DNA of 44,192 bases from Oscillospiraceae bacterium. GTDB lineage: Bacteria > Bacillota > Clostridia > Oscillospirales > Oscillospiraceae. Positions 5,946 to 13,425 of the stretch are shown here, one piece after another; position 1 is the first letter of the stretch, and every line of letters starts with the position of its first letter. The DNA lies in assembly GCA_017621795.1 (NCBI GenBank), contig JAGASJ010000085.1:1-44192 (forward strand), in the 5' to 3' direction. A program made the translations under genes and the position numbers. Below the pieces are notes generated by a model. The model was not told the origin of the DNA. It did no database searches and was given only the letters and a program-made list of their open reading frames with translations.

Positions 5946-5974
5946 ATCCTAACAAAAGAAGTGGGATTTGTCAA
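5946..5974 (-). promoter_or_regulatory. Sigma-A promoter of the tyrS T-box transcript, overlapping the end of recN
   Basis: Minus strand TTGACA (5974-5969), 17-base spacer, TAGGAT (5951-5946). The -35 box overlaps the recN stop codon (5973-5971). Confidence 0.85.
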
Positions 5975-7626
5975 GTGGCGGCAAGCAGCATTTCTTCCGC
6001 ACTGCGCAGTGTGGTTTCCGTAATATTCGCCCCGCCGATGATTCGAGCCACTTCCCTTTTTCTGCCCTCCAGGTCCAGAGGGGTCACTGTGGTATAGGTT
6101 CTTCCCTGCCGTTCTTCCTTCGAGATGAGCAAATGTGTATCGCCCATAGCCGCAAGCTGGGGTAAGTGGGTAACGCAAAGCACCTGCTTGTTCTTTGCCA
6201 CACTGCGCAACTTTTCTGCAACCTTCTGTGCGGCACGGCCGGAAACACCGGTATCCACCTCATCAAAAATCAGTGTATTGATTTGATCCTGCTCTGCAAG
6301 AACATTCTTCATTGCCAGCATAATTCGCGCCAATTCGCCACCGGATGCCACCTTGCTCATAGGTTTCAGTGCCTCTCCGGCATTGGCTGACATATAAAAT
6401 ACCACCTGATCCATACCGATGGCAGACAATTCTGTCTCCGTAAAAGCACAGGAAAACTGAACCTTGGGCATATCCAATGCAGATAGCTCTTCAAGAATCT
6501 TCTGGGATAGCAAACGGGCTGCATTCTGTCTGCTCTTGCGAAGCAACAACGCCGCCGACGTTGCTTCCTGCTCTGCTTTATGGCATTTATTTTTCAGGCG
6601 TTCGATGTGTTCATCGGCAAACTCGATCTCATCAAGCTCCTGTTTTGCCCGTTCTAAATAGTCCAAAATATCCGCACAGGTTGCGCCATATTTTTTACGC
6701 AAGCGGTGAATAACATCCAACCGTGCCTCAATACTTTCAAGCTCATCAGCAGAATAGGAAAGCTCATCTCTTGCCTCACGGACTTCCTCGGCCAGATACT
6801 GAACCTGATACATCAGGTCTGCAATTCGTTCGTGAATGCCATTATAGCTCTCCGTAAAACGCTGTAATCTGGAAATTTCTCGTTCCGCCTGCTGTAATAA
6901 AGCTGCCGCACCATCTGAGTCATCAGAGCCGTATAAGCACTCCACCGCAGTATAGATGCCATCACTGATCTTTTCTGCATTTTGCAGAAGCTTTCTGCGT
7001 TCCTCCAGGGCGGTATCCTCCCCCACCTTCAAATCGGCTTTTTCGATCTCGTCGATCTGGTAGCGAAGTGTTTCCATACGGCGAAGCTTTTCGCCTTCGT
7101 CCATGGTTTTGCGCTTAATTTCCTGCCTTAATTGAGACAGTATGTTGTACTTTTCACTGTAGTCTTCCCGCAGGGACTGATTATCGGCATAAGCATCCAG
7201 ATACATCAGATGGTTTTCTTCATTAAATAAGGCGGCAGAATCGTGCTGACCGTGAATGTTGATCAGCTGAATGCCCAGCTGTCGAAGCATTGTAACATTG
7301 ATCGCTGTTCCGTTCACCTTGCAGATATTGCGTCCGTCAAGATAAATTTCACGGACGATGACTGTTTCCGGATCATAGGGCACATTATTGTCCTCAAACC
7401 AGGAAAACATCGGCACGTCAGTAAATACCGCCCGTACAGAAGCCTTATCTGCGCCTGTGCGGATCATATCCCGGTATGCCCGTTCCCCGATGATGGCCGA
7501 TATGCCATCTATGACAATGGATTTACCTGCACCTGTCTCACCGGTTAAAATATTAAAGCCTTTATGAAATGTGATGTCAGCACATTCAATGACCGCAATA
7601 TTTTCTATATGCAGAAGGCTCAACAT
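5971..7626 (-). CDS. recN: DNA repair protein RecN (SMC-like ATPase)
   Basis: 551 residues. RecN tethers DNA ends during double-strand-break repair. Walker A GETGAGKSI is near residue 30, followed by a long coiled-coil middle (about 150-360). The C-terminal head has a signature SGGELARIMLAMK (near 426) and Walker B LIFDEVDTGVSG. The start at 7626 is preferred over an ATG six bases upstream because GGGAG is then 9 bases away instead of 3. It is the last gene of the OLE-dxs-tlyA-nadK-argR-recN operon. No terminator follows before the tyrS promoter. Confidence 0.96.
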   Translation of the reverse strand: MLSLLHIENIAVIECADITFHKGFNILTGETGAGKSIVIDGISAIIGERAYRDMIRTGADKASVRAVFTDVPMFSWFEDNNVPYDPETVIVREIYLDGRNICKVNGTAINVTMLRQLGIQLINIHGQHDSAALFNEENHLMYLDAYADNQSLREDYSEKYNILSQLRQEIKRKTMDEGEKLRRMETLRYQIDEIEKADLKVGEDTALEERRKLLQNAEKISDGIYTAVECLYGSDDSDGAAALLQQAEREISRLQRFTESYNGIHERIADLMYQVQYLAEEVREARDELSYSADELESIEARLDVIHRLRKKYGATCADILDYLERAKQELDEIEFADEHIERLKNKCHKAEQEATSAALLLRKSRQNAARLLSQKILEELSALDMPKVQFSCAFTETELSAIGMDQVVFYMSANAGEALKPMSKVASGGELARIMLAMKNVLAEQDQINTLIFDEVDTGVSGRAAQKVAEKLRSVAKNKQVLCVTHLPQLAAMGDTHLLISKEERQGRTYTTVTPLDLEGRKREVARIIGGANITETTLRSAEEMLLAAT

Positions 7627-7645
7627 CAGCATTCACTCCCTTTTA

Positions 7646-8101
7646 TCATTTAAGCAGGTTTTTTATTTCACCGTAAAAAGCGGCGGCAGAATTATTATCA
7701 CGCATAATTATAACCAGGGTGTCATCTCCTGCCAACGTACCAACAACGGTGCTCAGACTCATCGCATCGATTGCAGAGCCGGCAGCAGAAGCAAGTGCAG
7801 GCAATGTATGCACGACCACAATATTCTGCGCATAATCCACTTTCACAACACATTCTCTGAAAATGGTATTCAAACGTCCAACAAAGCTTCGCTCAATTTC
7901 GTTCGTAGCTGCCGCCGCATAACGGTATGTGCCAAAGCTGGTTAGCTCCTTAACGATTCTTAGCTCCTTAATATCCCGGGAAATCGTTGCCTGCGTACCA
8001 CGAAACCCTTCCTGCTGCAAGGCTTCCAACAGTTGTTCCTGCGTCTCCACATTTTTTGCGGATATGATCTCCATGATCTTTGCCTGTCTTTGACTCTTCA
8101 T
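7646..8101 (-). CDS. argR: Arginine repressor ArgR/AhrC
   Basis: 151 residues. Arginine-responsive hexameric regulator of arginine genes. An N-terminal winged helix (RQAKIMEII, GTQATISRDIKELRIVK) carries the DNA-binding Ser-Arg pair; the C-terminal domain has GTLAGDDTLVIIMRDN, the arginine-binding and oligomerisation region. The start at 8101 has GAGG 8 bases upstream and gives the usual family length. A start 18 bases earlier would overlap nadK and lacks a ribosome site. Its place between nadK and recN is typical of Firmicutes and does not reflect a function in repair. Confidence 0.95.
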   Translation of the reverse strand: MKSQRQAKIMEIISAKNVETQEQLLEALQQEGFRGTQATISRDIKELRIVKELTSFGTYRYAAAATNEIERSFVGRLNTIFRECVVKVDYAQNIVVVHTLPALASAAGSAIDAMSLSTVVGTLAGDDTLVIIMRDNNSAAAFYGEIKNLLK

Positions 8102-8111
8102 ATATGAACCC

Positions 8112-8975
8112 TCAGCCATTCTTAAATTTCATATTAACCACATCGTAAAAGCTTCTGGATTTCAAACGCACCAATTTCGTAGTTAAATTGGACTTTTTGA
8201 TCTCCACGCTGTCTCCCATATTGATCTTTACAGCCTTGCCGCCATCAACGGATAAAAATGCACTTCGGCGGGCATTATGGGTAAGCGCAACAGAGATTAC
8301 TCGCTTATCAGATGTAACAATACAGCGGCTTTGCATATCGTGCGCGCACACAGGTGTTACTAAAATACTATGTGCTTCCGGTTCAATAATCGGGCCACCG
8401 GCAGACAGACTGTAAGCAGTAGAGCCGGTGGGTGTAGCAACAATCACCCCATCACCGCCACATTCCATAACCTGTACGCCGTCACATTTGACACGAAGAT
8501 GAACGATCCGCGCAACCGCCCCCTTTGTAATAACCGCGTCGTTTAAACAAATATCATGGTAAATAATACTGCGATCACGATAAACCGTAATATCCAGCAT
8601 CATCCGTTCATCTATGGTATAATCGTCCTTTGCGATACGGGCAAGCTGTTGCAGCTCAGCGCTCTCCAGCTCAGCCATAAACCCCATTGTTCCGATATTG
8701 ACACCCAGAATAGGCAAGCCGTACCTTGTAGCGGTTTTCCCCATATGCAAAATAGTGCCGTCACCACCGAAGCATATAATCATAGATGCTGAGGGCAGTT
8801 CTCTTTCCAATTTGGAAAAAAACAAATCTTTTGGTAATTCGTATGCTCTGTCAACCTCGAAAGGAAGGCACAATTTAACATCTAATCCGGCCTCTATAAG
8901 AATTTTGCGCGCTTCACGAACAGCATTAAAATTCTTGTCACGGTATGGATTCGGTGTGAGAATTATCTTTTTCAT
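8112..8975 (-). CDS. nadK: NAD kinase
   Basis: 287 residues. Phosphorylates NAD to NADP. The GGDG motif (FGGDGTILH, near residue 69), the N-D motif (LNDAVITKG near 143) and the Gly-rich TPTGSTAYSLSAGGPI (near 181) are complete. It starts 4 bases after the tlyA stop, with a GGGGTGA-type ribosome site, so it is co-transcribed and probably coupled. Confidence 0.96.
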   Translation of the reverse strand: MKKIILTPNPYRDKNFNAVREARKILIEAGLDVKLCLPFEVDRAYELPKDLFFSKLERELPSASMIICFGGDGTILHMGKTATRYGLPILGVNIGTMGFMAELESAELQQLARIAKDDYTIDERMMLDITVYRDRSIIYHDICLNDAVITKGAVARIVHLRVKCDGVQVMECGGDGVIVATPTGSTAYSLSAGGPIIEPEAHSILVTPVCAHDMQSRCIVTSDKRVISVALTHNARRSAFLSVDGGKAVKINMGDSVEIKKSNLTTKLVRLKSRSFYDVVNMKFKNG

Positions 8976-8979
8976 AGAG

Positions 8980-9786
8980 TCACCCCTTCAATGTTTCATG
9001 TGCATCCTGTACAAGCTTTGCAGTATCAATAACCGGCTCATCACCGCCTGCCAAAGTCAAATGCGCTAAAAACTCAATATTGCCTTCCGGTCCTTTTACG
9101 GGTGAGAAGGTCAAGCCCAGTATGGTAAATCCGATTCTATGAGCAAGAGCGATAAAGTCTTCTAAAACTTCCTGATGTACCGCCGGATCTCGTACAACAC
9201 CTTTTTTGCCTACTTTTTCCTTACCGGCTTCAAACTGAGGCTTGATCAGACAGAGCACCTGTCCTTGATCCGCCTTCAAAAAGGTTTTAACCACAGGCAA
9301 AACAATTTTTAAGGATATAAAGCTTACATCAATAACAGAAAGATCCAGCGGCTCTCCCAATTGTTCCGGGGTAACATACCGCACATTGGTTCTCTCCATA
9401 ACGACCACACGGGGGTCAGAACGAATTTTCCAGTCCAACTGCCCGTAGCCAACATCAATGGCAAAAACCTTTTTGGCACCCTGCTGCAGCAAGCAATCTG
9501 TAAAGCCGCCTGTGGATGCGCCGGAATCACTGCATACATAGCCGGTAGGATCCACGCCAAAGTTGCGCAATGCCTTTTCAAGCTTTAAGCCGCCTCTGCT
9601 TACATACGGGCAGACTGCACCGCGTACCTCCAATACCACGTGCTCTTCATAGGAAACTCCGGGTTTATCTGCCTTTTGTCCATCCACATATACATTTCCA
9701 CTCATTATGATCGCTTGTGCTTTTGTTCTGGAGTCCGCATATCCCTGTTCAACAAGCAAAACATCCAATCTCTTTTTAATTTTCAC
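8980..9786 (-). CDS. tlyA: TlyA-family rRNA 2'-O-methyltransferase / hemolysin A homologue
   Basis: 268 residues. An N-terminal S4 RNA-binding domain (residues 3-65, RLDVLLVEQGYADSRTKAQA) is followed by an FtsJ-like Rossmann methyltransferase domain with SGASTGGFTDCLLQ near residue 90 and IDVSFISL near 150. In characterised relatives TlyA methylates 16S and/or 23S rRNA, and the hemolysin label is historical. The reading frame overlaps the end of dxs by 11 bases. The dxs-tlyA-nadK-argR-recN order is the conserved one. Confidence 0.93.
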   Translation of the reverse strand: MKIKKRLDVLLVEQGYADSRTKAQAIIMSGNVYVDGQKADKPGVSYEEHVVLEVRGAVCPYVSRGGLKLEKALRNFGVDPTGYVCSDSGASTGGFTDCLLQQGAKKVFAIDVGYGQLDWKIRSDPRVVVMERTNVRYVTPEQLGEPLDLSVIDVSFISLKIVLPVVKTFLKADQGQVLCLIKPQFEAGKEKVGKKGVVRDPAVHQEVLEDFIALAHRIGFTILGLTFSPVKGPEGNIEFLAHLTLAGGDEPVIDTAKLVQDAHETLKG

Positions 9787-11644
9787 AGGAGTGCTCCTCC
9801 ATTACATAATTTACAATTGACTGTGCATCTATTTTGCAGGCCTTACGCAAAGACTGTAAACTGCCGTGGGTAATATAATCATCACCCAGGTCTATACCGT
9901 AAACCTTTGCTTTATAATCTCGTTTATGAAGCTCCCAAGCTAAGGCTTCCTTGATGCCGCAGCCTTCGCATACTTCCTCAATAAAGAAAAGCGGTGTATC
10001 TTTTTTAACAAGATGCAACAGCTCATCCACCGGCAATGGTTTTACCGTCATCAGGCGCAACACGCCTGCACTTACGCCCTGTTCTTCCAAAAGTCGAGCA
10101 GCTTCCATCACATAGTTTACAGCTGTACCGTAAGTGATCAGCATCACGTCATCACCGGAACGATGACTGCAAACAGAAAAACTGCCATCTGCGAGCCAAC
10201 CACTGTCCTGATATTCGCCATCTCCTCCACGGGGATACCGCACTGCCACGGGACCATCATAACGCAGTACAGACCAGCGAAGCATATCAGATAATTCCTT
10301 ACAGCTACCGGGACAAAGAATCCGAAGACCGGGAGCATGGCGCAAAAAGCCAACGTCGAAAACGCCGTGATGGGTCTCCCCGTCTTCTCCAACCAACCCG
10401 GCACGATCCACGGCAAGGACCGTGTGTAAATGCAGCATACAAATATCCTGCAAAATCATATCGTAGCTTCTTTGCAGAAATGTGGAATACACAGCTACAA
10501 CGGGAATCATCCCCTGTTTGGCAAGTCCTCCGGCCATAGATACTGCATGTTCTTCTGCAATGCCTACATCAAAGGTACGTTCGGGATACCGATTCATAAA
10601 ATCTAAAAGTCCCGTGCCGGCAGGCATTGCGGCAGTTATGGCGCAAACCTTTGGATCTTCCTCGGCAAGTCGAAGCATTTCTTCTCCAAATGTCTGTGAG
10701 AATGTAGGCTTATCGCTTGACTGTGTCTGGCCGGTCATTGCATCAAAAGCACCAACACCGTGGAATTTTTTGGGGTTGTCCTCTGCAGGCTTAAAGCCAC
10801 GGCCTTTTTGGGTAACCACGTGAATAAGCACAGGCTCCTGCATCGCCTTCGCGTTATGGAACAGCTCAATAAGCAGCTCTGTATCGTGACCGTCCACCGG
10901 GCCCAAATAGGTAAATCCCATACTTTCAAAAATATTGGAGGGAATCAACATCTGACGGATGCGGTTTTTAATTTTACTGGAAATCTTATATAGTGCCTTG
11001 CCGCCCGGGATGCGCTCCAAAACTCTTTTATAGCGCCGCTTCATGGTAATATAGTGGGGCTTTGCGCGAAGCTTACGCAAATGGAAAGCCATACCGCCCA
11101 CGTTGCGGTCTATAGACATCTCATTATCATTTAAAATGACCACCAGGGGCTCATTGCTGACAGAAGCATCACTAAGTCCTTCAAACGCCATACCGCCGGT
11201 AGCAGCACCGTCTCCAATGAGGGCAATCACATGATGATTCTGCTTTTGAATCGTTCTGGCACGGGCCATACCTAATGCAACAGAAATAGAATTAGATGCA
11301 TGGCCTGCCACAAACGCGTCTGTATGGCTTTCAGAGGGCTTTGGAAAGCCAGCCATCCCTCCGAATTGGCGCAAAGAATTAAAATCCGCCTGGCGACCTG
11401 TGAGCATCTTATGCACATAAGACTGATGCCCCACATCAAAAACCAGGCGGTCATTTTCCGTGTTGAATACAGTTTCCAGTGCAACGCTCAGCTCTACAAC
11501 TCCCAGATTTGATGCAAGGTGACCGCCGGTTCTGGAAATATTTGAAACCAGAAATGCTCTGATCTCATCACACAGCTGCAGCCTTTGATCCTTGTTTAAT
11601 TCTACCAAATCCCGATGGCCGTGAACATTTTCTAAGATAGACAC
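9776..11644 (-). CDS. dxs: 1-deoxy-D-xylulose-5-phosphate synthase
   Basis: 622 residues. A thiamine-diphosphate enzyme joining pyruvate and glyceraldehyde-3-phosphate, first step of the non-mevalonate isoprenoid route. Visible: SNLGVVELSVAL near residue 44, the GHASNSISVALG segment near 113, the diphosphate-binding GDGAATGGMAFEGLSDA...NDNEMSID block near 143-180, and the transketolase C-terminal domains. The start codon is GTG at 11644 with only a weak ribosome site (an AGG about 11 bases upstream). It lies directly downstream of oapA in the OLE operon. Confidence 0.96.
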   Translation of the reverse strand: MSILENVHGHRDLVELNKDQRLQLCDEIRAFLVSNISRTGGHLASNLGVVELSVALETVFNTENDRLVFDVGHQSYVHKMLTGRQADFNSLRQFGGMAGFPKPSESHTDAFVAGHASNSISVALGMARARTIQKQNHHVIALIGDGAATGGMAFEGLSDASVSNEPLVVILNDNEMSIDRNVGGMAFHLRKLRAKPHYITMKRRYKRVLERIPGGKALYKISSKIKNRIRQMLIPSNIFESMGFTYLGPVDGHDTELLIELFHNAKAMQEPVLIHVVTQKGRGFKPAEDNPKKFHGVGAFDAMTGQTQSSDKPTFSQTFGEEMLRLAEEDPKVCAITAAMPAGTGLLDFMNRYPERTFDVGIAEEHAVSMAGGLAKQGMIPVVAVYSTFLQRSYDMILQDICMLHLHTVLAVDRAGLVGEDGETHHGVFDVGFLRHAPGLRILCPGSCKELSDMLRWSVLRYDGPVAVRYPRGGDGEYQDSGWLADGSFSVCSHRSGDDVMLITYGTAVNYVMEAARLLEEQGVSAGVLRLMTVKPLPVDELLHLVKKDTPLFFIEEVCEGCGIKEALAWELHKRDYKAKVYGIDLGDDYITHGSLQSLRKACKIDAQSIVNYVMEEHSCEN

Positions 11645-11662
11645 TGAAACACAACCTAACTA

Positions 11663-12238
11663 TTATTTATTTTTCTTTTTTCTTGGATGCAATGCATAGA
11701 TGGTACGCCCCACCATGTGCACGATCTTGGTGCAGGAGCCAATTGCAAAGGTTTTGCCAATGGCCTTGCCGCCTACGGTCAATCCTGCAACCAGTGCTGA
11801 CATTGCCAGCTTGATGATTTGTGAAGTATCTCCGGAAAAGTCCACCAAAATCTGTGCCGCAATGGATGCGGAAGCAGAACCGGAAACAACGCCGCAAATA
11901 TCACCGATCACGTCATTGCAAATAGAACTGACCCTTTCAGCATTTCGAAGAAGAGAAATCGCCTCTTGTGCTCCGGGCACTTTACGGGCCGCCATAGAAT
12001 GAAAAGGCTTCTCATCGGCAGAGGTCACCGCAACACCGATAATATCAAATATAATGCCGATCAGCACGATCACAAAAAGCACAACAAAAGCTATTCCAAC
12101 AGAGCTGGAGGCCATCAATTCGTTGGATGCAAAAGAAAATGTGCCGGAAATAAGAATCGTAACAACAAAAATAGTAATAACCCAACGAATAGTTTTATTG
12201 CGTTCTTTTTTCGAAGAAGATGCGTCTGATTTAGACAC
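11663..12238 (-). CDS. oapA: OLE RNA-associated membrane protein OapA
   Basis: 191 residues, basic and hydrophobic. A charged N-terminal tail (KSDASSSKKERNK) is followed by a membrane helix at about 20-37 and a second at about 47-70. Next comes the strongly patterned FDIIGVAVTSADEKPFHSMA, which resembles the start of DUF21-type domains, and a C-terminal half with one or two further hydrophobic segments and a KKKNK tail. Lying between the non-coding RNA and dxs, it matches OapA, which in Bacillus halodurans binds OLE RNA and holds it at the membrane. GTG at 12238 is preferred to the TTG at 12244 because GGGAG is then 8 bases away, not 2. Identification rests on recalled family pattern plus locus. 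Confidence 0.88.
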   Translation of the reverse strand: MSKSDASSSKKERNKTIRWVITIFVVTILISGTFSFASNELMASSSVGIAFVVLFVIVLIGIIFDIIGVAVTSADEKPFHSMAARKVPGAQEAISLLRNAERVSSICNDVIGDICGVVSGSASASIAAQILVDFSGDTSQIIKLAMSALVAGLTVGGKAIGKTFAIGSCTKIVHMVGRTIYALHPRKKKNK

Positions 12239-12257
12239 GTACAAATCTCCCTTATGT

Positions 12258-12877
12258 TCAAAGTAAACGGTAGCAGGCAGGATAAATCTTACGGCTTAGG
12301 TCGGGTTGGTTTTCCCCATTCGAAACCTGCCGTTGCCGTGCAGGCTGTTTCCATTTAATCCAAAAGCTCAAGTGTTGCCAAATAATGAGTACCCGATTGC
12401 CACTGAGACCGTACTGTAATCCCCTGCCTGCCCAGTTACGACAGCCTAGGTGTTTTCCACCGCAAAACGATTCGATTCTTAGCCTCTTTTGCAAATATGG
12501 TTTCCAGGAGCAATAGCATAAAATGTCTGCGCACGACACCGTTATGCATGTTCCCCTTTCCCCGCATATTCACTCAAGGCAGGCTACACTGCATGTAGCA
12601 TCGCGATTCTGCGCACCACATTGCAGGTTCATACCAGGCTCGTACGCGATTGGGTCCTGTTTGCAGGATCTATACCACCGTCGCACAACACCAGGTCTCC
12701 ACGGAAAACGGGTCGTATACTCCATGCCATTGGAGTGCGCCCGAAATCCTTAACCCCCAGCACCCACCCTAAACTGGGCGTAAAAAGCAGGCACCACGGA
12801 CTTCATCGATATGCCCTTCATAGGATTTTTAGGCCCTACCTGGGAACCGACCATTTTGACTAGGATACTGCACCGTC
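12258..12877 (-). ncRNA. ole: OLE RNA (ornate, large, extremophilic RNA)
   Basis: A roughly 620-base stretch with no credible protein on either strand, placed between a strong promoter and oapA-dxs-tlyA-nadK-argR-recN. That is the known genomic setting of OLE RNA, which is about 610 bases long and forms a membrane-bound complex with OapA. Local hairpins fit a structured RNA: ACTCCA/TGGAGT with loop ATGGCA near 12720, GCTACA/TGTAGC near 12590, and CCTG/CAGG with loop CAAA near 12660. The 5' end is inferred from the promoter (G at about 12877). The 3' end is an estimate, before the oapA ribosome site at 12251. I could not align it to the family model. Confidence 0.88.
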
Positions 12878-12884
12878 AAAATGA

Positions 12885-12913
12885 ATATTATCATAGAATA
12901 TATGAATATTCAA
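12885..12913 (-). promoter_or_regulatory. Strong sigma-A promoter of OLE RNA and its operon
   Basis: Minus strand TTGAAT (12913-12908), 17-base spacer, TAATAT (12890-12885) in very A/T-rich DNA. Expected start of transcription is near G12877. An inverted repeat ATTTTGAC/GTCAAAAT (12853-12860 and 12875-12882) spans this start. Confidence 0.87.
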
Positions 12914-12960
12914 GCATTATTTCAATAATTATTCATTTGGAATACACCATAGCGCAAAAA

Positions 12961-12982
12961 ATCCTGCCGTTGACGGCAGGAT
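12961..12982 (-). terminator. Terminator of the gtrA-like gene
   Basis: Perfect 9-base stem ATCCTGCCG/CGGCAGGAT with loop TTGA in the + orientation, followed on the minus strand by six T. It touches the stop codon of the GtrA-like gene and separates it from the OLE promoter. Confidence 0.87.
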
Positions 12983-13402
12983 TTATTTTTGCGTAGTACT
13001 GTGTTTGAAAATCAGAACGCTTCCAACATAATTGATTATAATTACTGCAACAGAGACGATCGCCTTAACAGCAATGGCGTTATAGGCCATCATATCGACG
13101 AAAAACACCATTGCGGCAGATTCCAGTAAAAAGGATGTCAGGCGGCAGCAATAGAAGTTAAACGCCTCCCTAAGCACCACCTTCGCCGACCAGTCGTAGC
13201 TTTTGAAAACAAAAGGTTTATTTGTAATAAATGCAAAGAATACCGAAACCACCCACGCAAGTCCGTTATAAAGTGTAACCGGCTCACTGTTTCTAAAGGG
13301 CAGAAAAATCAACCAGTTGACCAAGGTCGTCAAAATGCCAAACAGAACGTATAGGACCATATTCCAGTGCTTTTTTGCAAAGCAAACAAGCTTGGCGGAC
13401 AA
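12983..13402 (-). CDS. GtrA-family small membrane protein
   Basis: 139 residues with four predicted membrane helices (about 12-32, 38-58, 76-100 and 108-128). The pattern YVLFGILTTLVNWLIF and the central FAFITNKPFVFKS are typical of the GtrA/DPMS_TM family, thought to help flip lipid-linked sugars used for glycosylating cell-surface polymers. The start is TTG at 13402: AGGAGG lies 8 bases upstream. A GTG at 13411 that would extend the frame is part of that same AGGAGGTG sequence, so it cannot be the start. Single-gene unit with its own promoter and terminator; no glycosyltransferase partner is adjacent. Confidence 0.88.
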   Translation of the reverse strand: MSAKLVCFAKKHWNMVLYVLFGILTTLVNWLIFLPFRNSEPVTLYNGLAWVVSVFFAFITNKPFVFKSYDWSAKVVLREAFNFYCCRLTSFLLESAAMVFFVDMMAYNAIAVKAIVSVAVIIINYVGSVLIFKHSTTQK

Positions 13403-13425
13403 ATCGAACACCTCCTATTAGGTGC

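Follow-up and report, generated by a model that had tools for sequence, protein, structure and literature searches.

The intergenic stretch before a gene for a 191-residue protein in an Oscillospiraceae genome encodes a full-length OLE RNA, and together the two form a well-supported, ordinary OLE-OapA locus of an already known class. OLE is among the largest of the bacterial RNAs without a known biochemical function. The locus lies in a 44,192-nucleotide stretch of DNA (the window; contig JAGASJ010000085.1 of assembly GCA_017621795.1), and its features are collected in Table 1. As a family member, the host OLE is ordinary; its value lies in the genus, where natural losses of ole-oapA with the promoter kept, and a switch of the palindrome in the P9 loop, can be compared.

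An earlier reading of the window made from its letters and open reading frames (the sequence-only reading) had proposed that the gene-free stretch is OLE RNA. The Rfam covariance model of OLE (RF01071), run on the minus strand, bears this out with a match at 12892-12251 (-) that covers model positions 1-616 at 432.4 bits (E 8.2e-124), the gathering score being 50 bits. The sole open reading frames listed between gtrA and the 191-aa ORF are overlapping ones of 61-93 aa. With the same model, no second OLE was found in the host genome (G000; a 2.03-Mb assembly in 105 contigs, 89% complete), the copy at 12892-12251 being the sole match. The RNA, of about 600 nt, is of the full-length type rather than variant 1 or 2, with P7, P8 and a long P9 present, the P9 region comprising 85 nt between its flanks, and no helix of the model is missing. 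As for the suggestion that this might be a divergent member, the host copy is not very divergent: the other full or nearly full OLE copies of the same genus score 409-451 bits, a range that includes it.

Table 1. Features of the ole-oapA locus and its surroundings in the window
Feature	Position	Strand	Evidence or remark
gtrA	12983-13411	-	Pfam 52.2 bits
Inverted repeat and T run resembling a terminator, located between gtrA and ole promoter	12956-12984	-	sequence scan
ole promoter: -35 TTGAAT (12913-12908), N17 spacer with TG before the -10, -10 TAATAT (12890-12885)	12885-12913	-	same-genus comparison
OLE RNA	12251-12892	-	full-length RF01071 match
P4 and A-rich loop L4 (CUAAAAAUCC)	12823-12836	-	kept in 17 aligned OLE sequences
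P5 loop (ACGCCCAGU)	12773-12781	-	core ACGCCCAG kept in alignment of 17 OLE sequences
P6 loop (CAAUGGCAUG)	12722-12733	-	kept in alignment of 17 OLE sequences
Insert at P7 tip, could fold as a small hairpin	12652-12670	-	19-nt insertion relative to the Rfam model
P9 tip, self-complementary loop GUGCGCA, palindrome UGCGCA	12523-12539	-	loop sequence
Hairpin CUGCACGGCAACGGCAG in the region where OapB is published to bind (P13)	12327-12343	-	present in model alignment
oapA, 191 aa, GTG start, Shine-Dalgarno AAGGGAG (12253-12247)	11666-12238	-	homologue in 45/60 relatives
dxs, gene after oapA in the presumed operon	9776-11644	-	TIGR00204, 667 bits
tlyA	8980-9786	-	TIGR00478, 272 bits
nadK	8112-8975	-	NCBIfam NAD kinase models, below curated cut-offs (230.9 vs 299 bits)
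argR	7646-8119	-	TIGR01529, 133.1 bits (cut-off 130.45)
recN	5971-7632	-	TIGR00634, 540.7 bits

OLE had also been credited with its own promoter, a start at about 12877 and a length of about 610 nt, and comparison within the genus agrees on each point. All 26 same-genus loci examined have TTGWWT-N17-TANNNT, its -10 preceded by TG, at the same place (shuffled rate 0.7%; 27 loci were given, one of which was too short, and two of the genus total of 29 OLE loci, with cut-off OLE, were left out). In the host, this conserved site at 12913-12885 predicts a start near 12878, and with it an RNA of about 610 nt; the mature OLE RNA probably extends from about 12878 to 12267. A simple promoter scan, which returned 7 promoter-like sites against 4.1 expected and so proves little on its own, preferred TTGAAA/TATATT at 12925-12897; this candidate was rejected because the relatives conserve 12913-12885 instead.

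The GTG start of oapA lies 13 nt past the end of the OLE match, in tandem with it. Identification of the 191-residue protein as OapA, as proposed, is confirmed by homologues that directly follow OLE in loci of Bacillus, Clostridium rectalis and Sporobacter. No Pfam or NCBIfam model matched the protein above cut-off, neither collection having a curated OapA model, and no relative was found in the PDB (best E 0.58). The protein is homologous to those of Bacillus-type loci, L249 and L267 among them. With the OapA of Bacillus sp. JCM 19034 (L249), before which OLE also lies, it shares homology along the protein, the position after OLE and a pair of aspartates, whereas its N-terminal tail is longer than in Bacillus-type OapA; identity to the Bacillus-type loci listed as nearest is 45-48% (48% for L249). 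Asp109 and Asp113 of the host protein do not vary in either of two alignments, one of 20 and one of 39 sequences, and the L249 protein has the motif CNDVIGDI, with its two aspartates at exactly 100 and 104. With the numbering taken from this Bacillus-type protein, the host pair apparently matches D100 and D104, the residues changed in a published OapA mutant of H. halodurans (PMC9723947). As had been noted, the protein is basic (21 K+R against 12 D+E); a simple hydropathy scan gives three strong hydrophobic stretches (20-38, 49-67 and 114-132), where four helices had been supposed.

The published dimer contacts L4, L5-L6 and the P9 palindrome are present in the host OLE, as judged by sequence. 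L4 corresponds to the published dimer bridge B1 (PMC12286853), the P5 loop on one side and the P6 loop on the other make up the published intermolecular contact L5-L6 (PMC12286853, PMC12265935), and the P9 tip is bridge B3 (PMC12286853). The L4, L5, L6 and P9 elements are shared with the OLE RNAs of RF01071 (H. halodurans, Clostridium acetobutylicum), as are 616 of the 616 model positions; by contrast, the palindrome of the P9 loop is UGCGCA where GGCC is usual, and the P7 tip carries a 19-nt insert. Inserts at this tip are also seen in G016 and G029, with other letters and, by eye, with pairing also possible. The hairpin at 12327-12343 appears to be P13, an assignment inferred from the papers' description. 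Published background on OLE is taken here from PMC12286853, PMC11332333, PMC12265935, PMC12054373 and PMC9723947.

Cryo-EM showed OLE dimers whose P9 loops kiss via the palindrome GGCC, with switches to GAUC or AGCU (PMC12286853), and the evolution of the P9 loop can serve as a test of this dimer; the main text of that paper does not mention GCGC. We surveyed 102 OLE sequences, those of 42 relatives and 60 more chosen from the phylum list, mostly one per family and the best-scoring of the listed matches, so that weak or variant OLEs are under-represented. Nine sequences with a short P9 were left out, and GGCC is found in 80 of the remaining 93 full-length P9s. A palindromic tetramer is held by 10 of the 13 other loops, for which the chance is about 1e-4 if base composition is taken as even and the sequences as independent; two pairs among them, G000 and G029, and G144 and G440, are close kin. 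The tetramer is GCGC in the host, G029, G063, G149 and G184, GCGC/CGCG in G419 and AGCT in G054, G144 and G440; the loop of G016 can be read in two ways, as TATA or as a UGUAUA that includes two G-U pairs, and the full-length P9 loops of G041, G061 and G072 showed no self-complementarity. Since a self-pairing loop requires it, the step from GGCC to GCGC needs a joint change of both middle bases. A matched change in the two halves of the palindrome, with self-complementarity kept, apparently supports the published OLE dimer, and it is in this respect that the locus is useful for testing the structure model, as the sequence-only reading had hoped.

Candidates for the partner proteins are found elsewhere in the host genome. 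The names map, infA, rpsL, rpsG, fusA, tufA and mfd are used here for unnamed ORFs identified by eye. A candidate OapC/YbxF-like gene precedes the presumed rpsL, its best PDB match being YbxF-type proteins (E 5e-16), and bS21 is present (E 4e-21). OapB is expected between map and infA, and a weak candidate, a 102-aa ORF, lies between the ORFs read as these two genes. Its best PDB match is OLE-associated protein B (7k9b; E 0.0013), followed by a designed protein (0.005); a KOW model run over the host genome did not find this candidate and matched only two other genes.

Taken together, the full-length match at 432.4 bits, the presence of OapA with all 42 OLEs of the relatives, the aspartate pair, the promoter conserved in 26 of 26 loci, the OapC-like, bS21 and weak OapB-like proteins and the P9 self-complementarity kept in 10 of 13 loops make it very probable that this is a genuine ole-oapA pair that works as follows. 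A transcript would start near 12878 from the conserved promoter and continue through OLE and oapA into the remaining genes of the operon, and an OLE RNA of roughly 610 nt would be cut out of it. Contacts at L4, at L5-L6 and between the self-complementary P9 loops would join two such RNAs, OapA would anchor the dimer in the membrane, and OapB, OapC and bS21 may help to fold or complete the particle. In published work on H. halodurans, the OLE particle helps against cold, alcohol, excess Mg2+ and poor carbon sources. That the locus is instead a decaying relic, in which the RNA still scores well after its function has gone in a gut lineage, seems to us extremely unlikely: two nearby species did lose ole-oapA, and lineages of MAGs with reduced OLE have been published (PMC11332333), but here the match is full length with intact helices, the promoter is conserved, OapA is intact with its invariant residues kept, the dimer loops are retained and the change in the P9 loop preserves self-pairing.

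The mesophilic, gut-type setting proposed for the organism is in line with the nearest relatives of its OapA, which among the best 80 listed come from animal-gut MAGs of the Oscillospiraceae; the closest genus-named protein among these 80 matches is that of Candidatus Faecousia intestinigallinarum (69% identical). The idea that OLE is out of the ordinary in such a host is not upheld, given that a sample of 398 genomes from the phylum contains 284 with OLE. A published survey reports it in 2,822 Bacillota genomes, some of which are gut MAGs (PMC11332333); our literature search found no paper that pairs OLE RNA with Oscillospir- taxa. Among the 60 nearest genomes, the host included, 42 have OLE (29/37 of the genus and 13/23 others of the order); G128, a genome of another genus of the family in the phylum sample of 398, had none that we could find. 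OapA is present in 45 of the 60, including all 42 with OLE. The other three (G004, G005 and G025) were rejected as cases of OapA without OLE, oapA being at a contig edge in each, and the incomplete genomes G008, G028 and G034, which also showed no tlyA, were set aside. In G037, OLE and oapA are on different contigs rather than in tandem (L069 on C53, L074 on C30); OLE is followed there by a 1150-aa ORF that appears mfd-like by eye, and oapA stands before dxs on the other contig. In G041, one oapA copy (C41) follows OLE, and a second (L075, C94) precedes dxs, the sequence upstream of it showing no OLE up to where the contig stops.

In two related species, G001 (99% complete) and G035 (98%), dxs-tlyA-nadK-argR-recN is present without ole-oapA, the site being assembled and no OLE being found within 18 kb around the locus. 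The ole promoter pattern stands directly before dxs in both, and in G001 it is preceded by the NUDIX-like gene that lies before ole in 17 other same-genus genomes. The simplest reading is that ole-oapA was cleanly deleted, the promoter being left to drive dxs, and this apparent clean loss could help to test OLE function. A hairpin-forming leader lies between the kept promoter and dxs in both species (L086 about 7590-7732, L087 about 7330-7452). The persistence of the promoter would also fit the notion that it is conserved for the housekeeping operon only and that OLE is a mere leader; we regard this as very unlikely, considering that the complex structure of OLE and its partner gene are kept and that in G037 OLE, apart from dxs, has a promoter-like stretch of its own. 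On a tree of five downstream proteins, G001 is placed beside G017 (0.96) and G035 beside G010 (1.0), and G017 and G010 each have both OLE and an MpfA-type protein, which suggests two separate losses of ole-oapA.

MpfA-type proteins, published as Mg2+ exporters that overlap OLE in Mg2+ handling, were recognized by a strong CNNM match (E < 1e-39) in open frames of 338-522 aa in 19 of the 60 relatives. Among relatives at least 90% complete, they are present in 11/11 without OLE versus 4/22 with OLE (Fisher p 7e-6, uncorrected for kinship), and outside the genus in 9/9 near-complete genomes without OLE versus 0/13 with OLE; no MpfA-type protein was found in G040, a tenth OLE-lacking genome outside the genus, which is 55% complete. 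This pattern agrees with a published anticorrelation of OLE and MpfA (PMC11332333). In seven same-genus genomes (G010, G013, G017, G018, G020, G021 and G025), an MpfA-type protein coexists with OLE or with an OapA at a contig edge, and MpfA-type proteins and OLE are therefore not exclusive. The MpfA tree departs from the species tree, joining G001 with G020 and G010, and G035 with G052, G017, G013 and G021, which suggests that these proteins were repeatedly gained or lost in the genus. At least three groups can be told apart among the MpfA-type proteins of the genus (L123, L124, L082, L084, L085, L270-L287). In the host genome (89% complete), the CNNM search found no CNNM/MpfA-type protein; 12 of 14 control genomes were positive in this search. 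The CNNM model of the MpfA/CorC family (PF01595) does weakly recognize OapA in 15 relatives, in that 15 of 18 weak matches fall on OapA genes, above cut-off in two (G047 and G056), with no match to the host OapA at E 1e-3; MpfA/CorC proteins differ from OapA in their longer open frames and the strength of the match.

The order of events suggested by these genomes, without proving it, is that the gain of MpfA preceded the loss of OLE. Conceivably, then, OLE-OapA is in this genus an exchangeable module for Mg2+ and membrane stress, such that an MpfA-type protein was gained first and ole-oapA was then cleanly deleted with the promoter kept for dxs, G001 and G035 being natural knock-outs that arose twice with different MpfA groups; we put this forward tentatively, as a real possibility that stops short of being probable. 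If true, it would provide pairs of sister species in which the job of OLE could be read from what changes. It is also possible, if somewhat doubtful, that the opposite patterns of MpfA and OLE reflect kinship and chance with no takeover of the job of OLE by MpfA: closely related genomes are not independent, the three or more same-genus groups off the species tree fit unrelated gains, and the two systems co-occur in the seven genomes named above. Against this, the two separate losses suggested by the tree both occur in species with an MpfA-type protein, of different groups, and near-complete genomes of other families show the same division without exception. Because all the near-complete relatives examined that are without the OLE particle have an MpfA-type protein, we think that the shared core role of the particle may be the handling of Mg2+ and membrane stress. 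Losers of ole-oapA beside keepers, with MpfA-type proteins in the losers, make a small comparison for the idea of replacement.

The genes around ole-oapA are largely those of known loci. Like the OLE RNAs of RF01071, that of the host is followed by oapA and then by dxs-tlyA-nadK-argR-recN, the order that the sequence-only reading had given, all of these five being above curated NCBIfam cut-offs except nadK. Upstream, a GtrA gene is found in place of the ispA and xse of known loci, also as had been read, and the inverted repeat with a T run behind it is indeed present, although the claim that it is the terminator of gtrA gains little from the number of such sites in the region, which is not above chance (3 against 2.6 expected). 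A gtrA gene before ole was seen only in the host, G016 and G029 (44-45%), some loci being too short to tell, and G016 and G029 are the nearest relatives of the host on the tree of five downstream proteins. The gene directly before ole is one for a polyprenyl synthase in the same-genus genome G010 and, at the least, in G038, G042, G043, G045, G048, G054 and G059, and xse/ispA-like ORFs, read by eye, lie upstream of OLE in L249, L267, L222 and L218; the classic ispA/xse order is therefore ancestral and was altered within the genus. The names ispA, xseA, NUDIX and polymerase IV are our presumptive ones, given by eye to unnamed ORFs. A polyprenyl synthase was not found in the 89%-complete host assembly, where dxs is present; since 50 of the 60 relatives have the gene, it is probably missing from the incomplete assembly. 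Farther downstream, a T-box leader (RF00230, 119.5 bits) lies at 5933-5706 (-), directly before tyrS.
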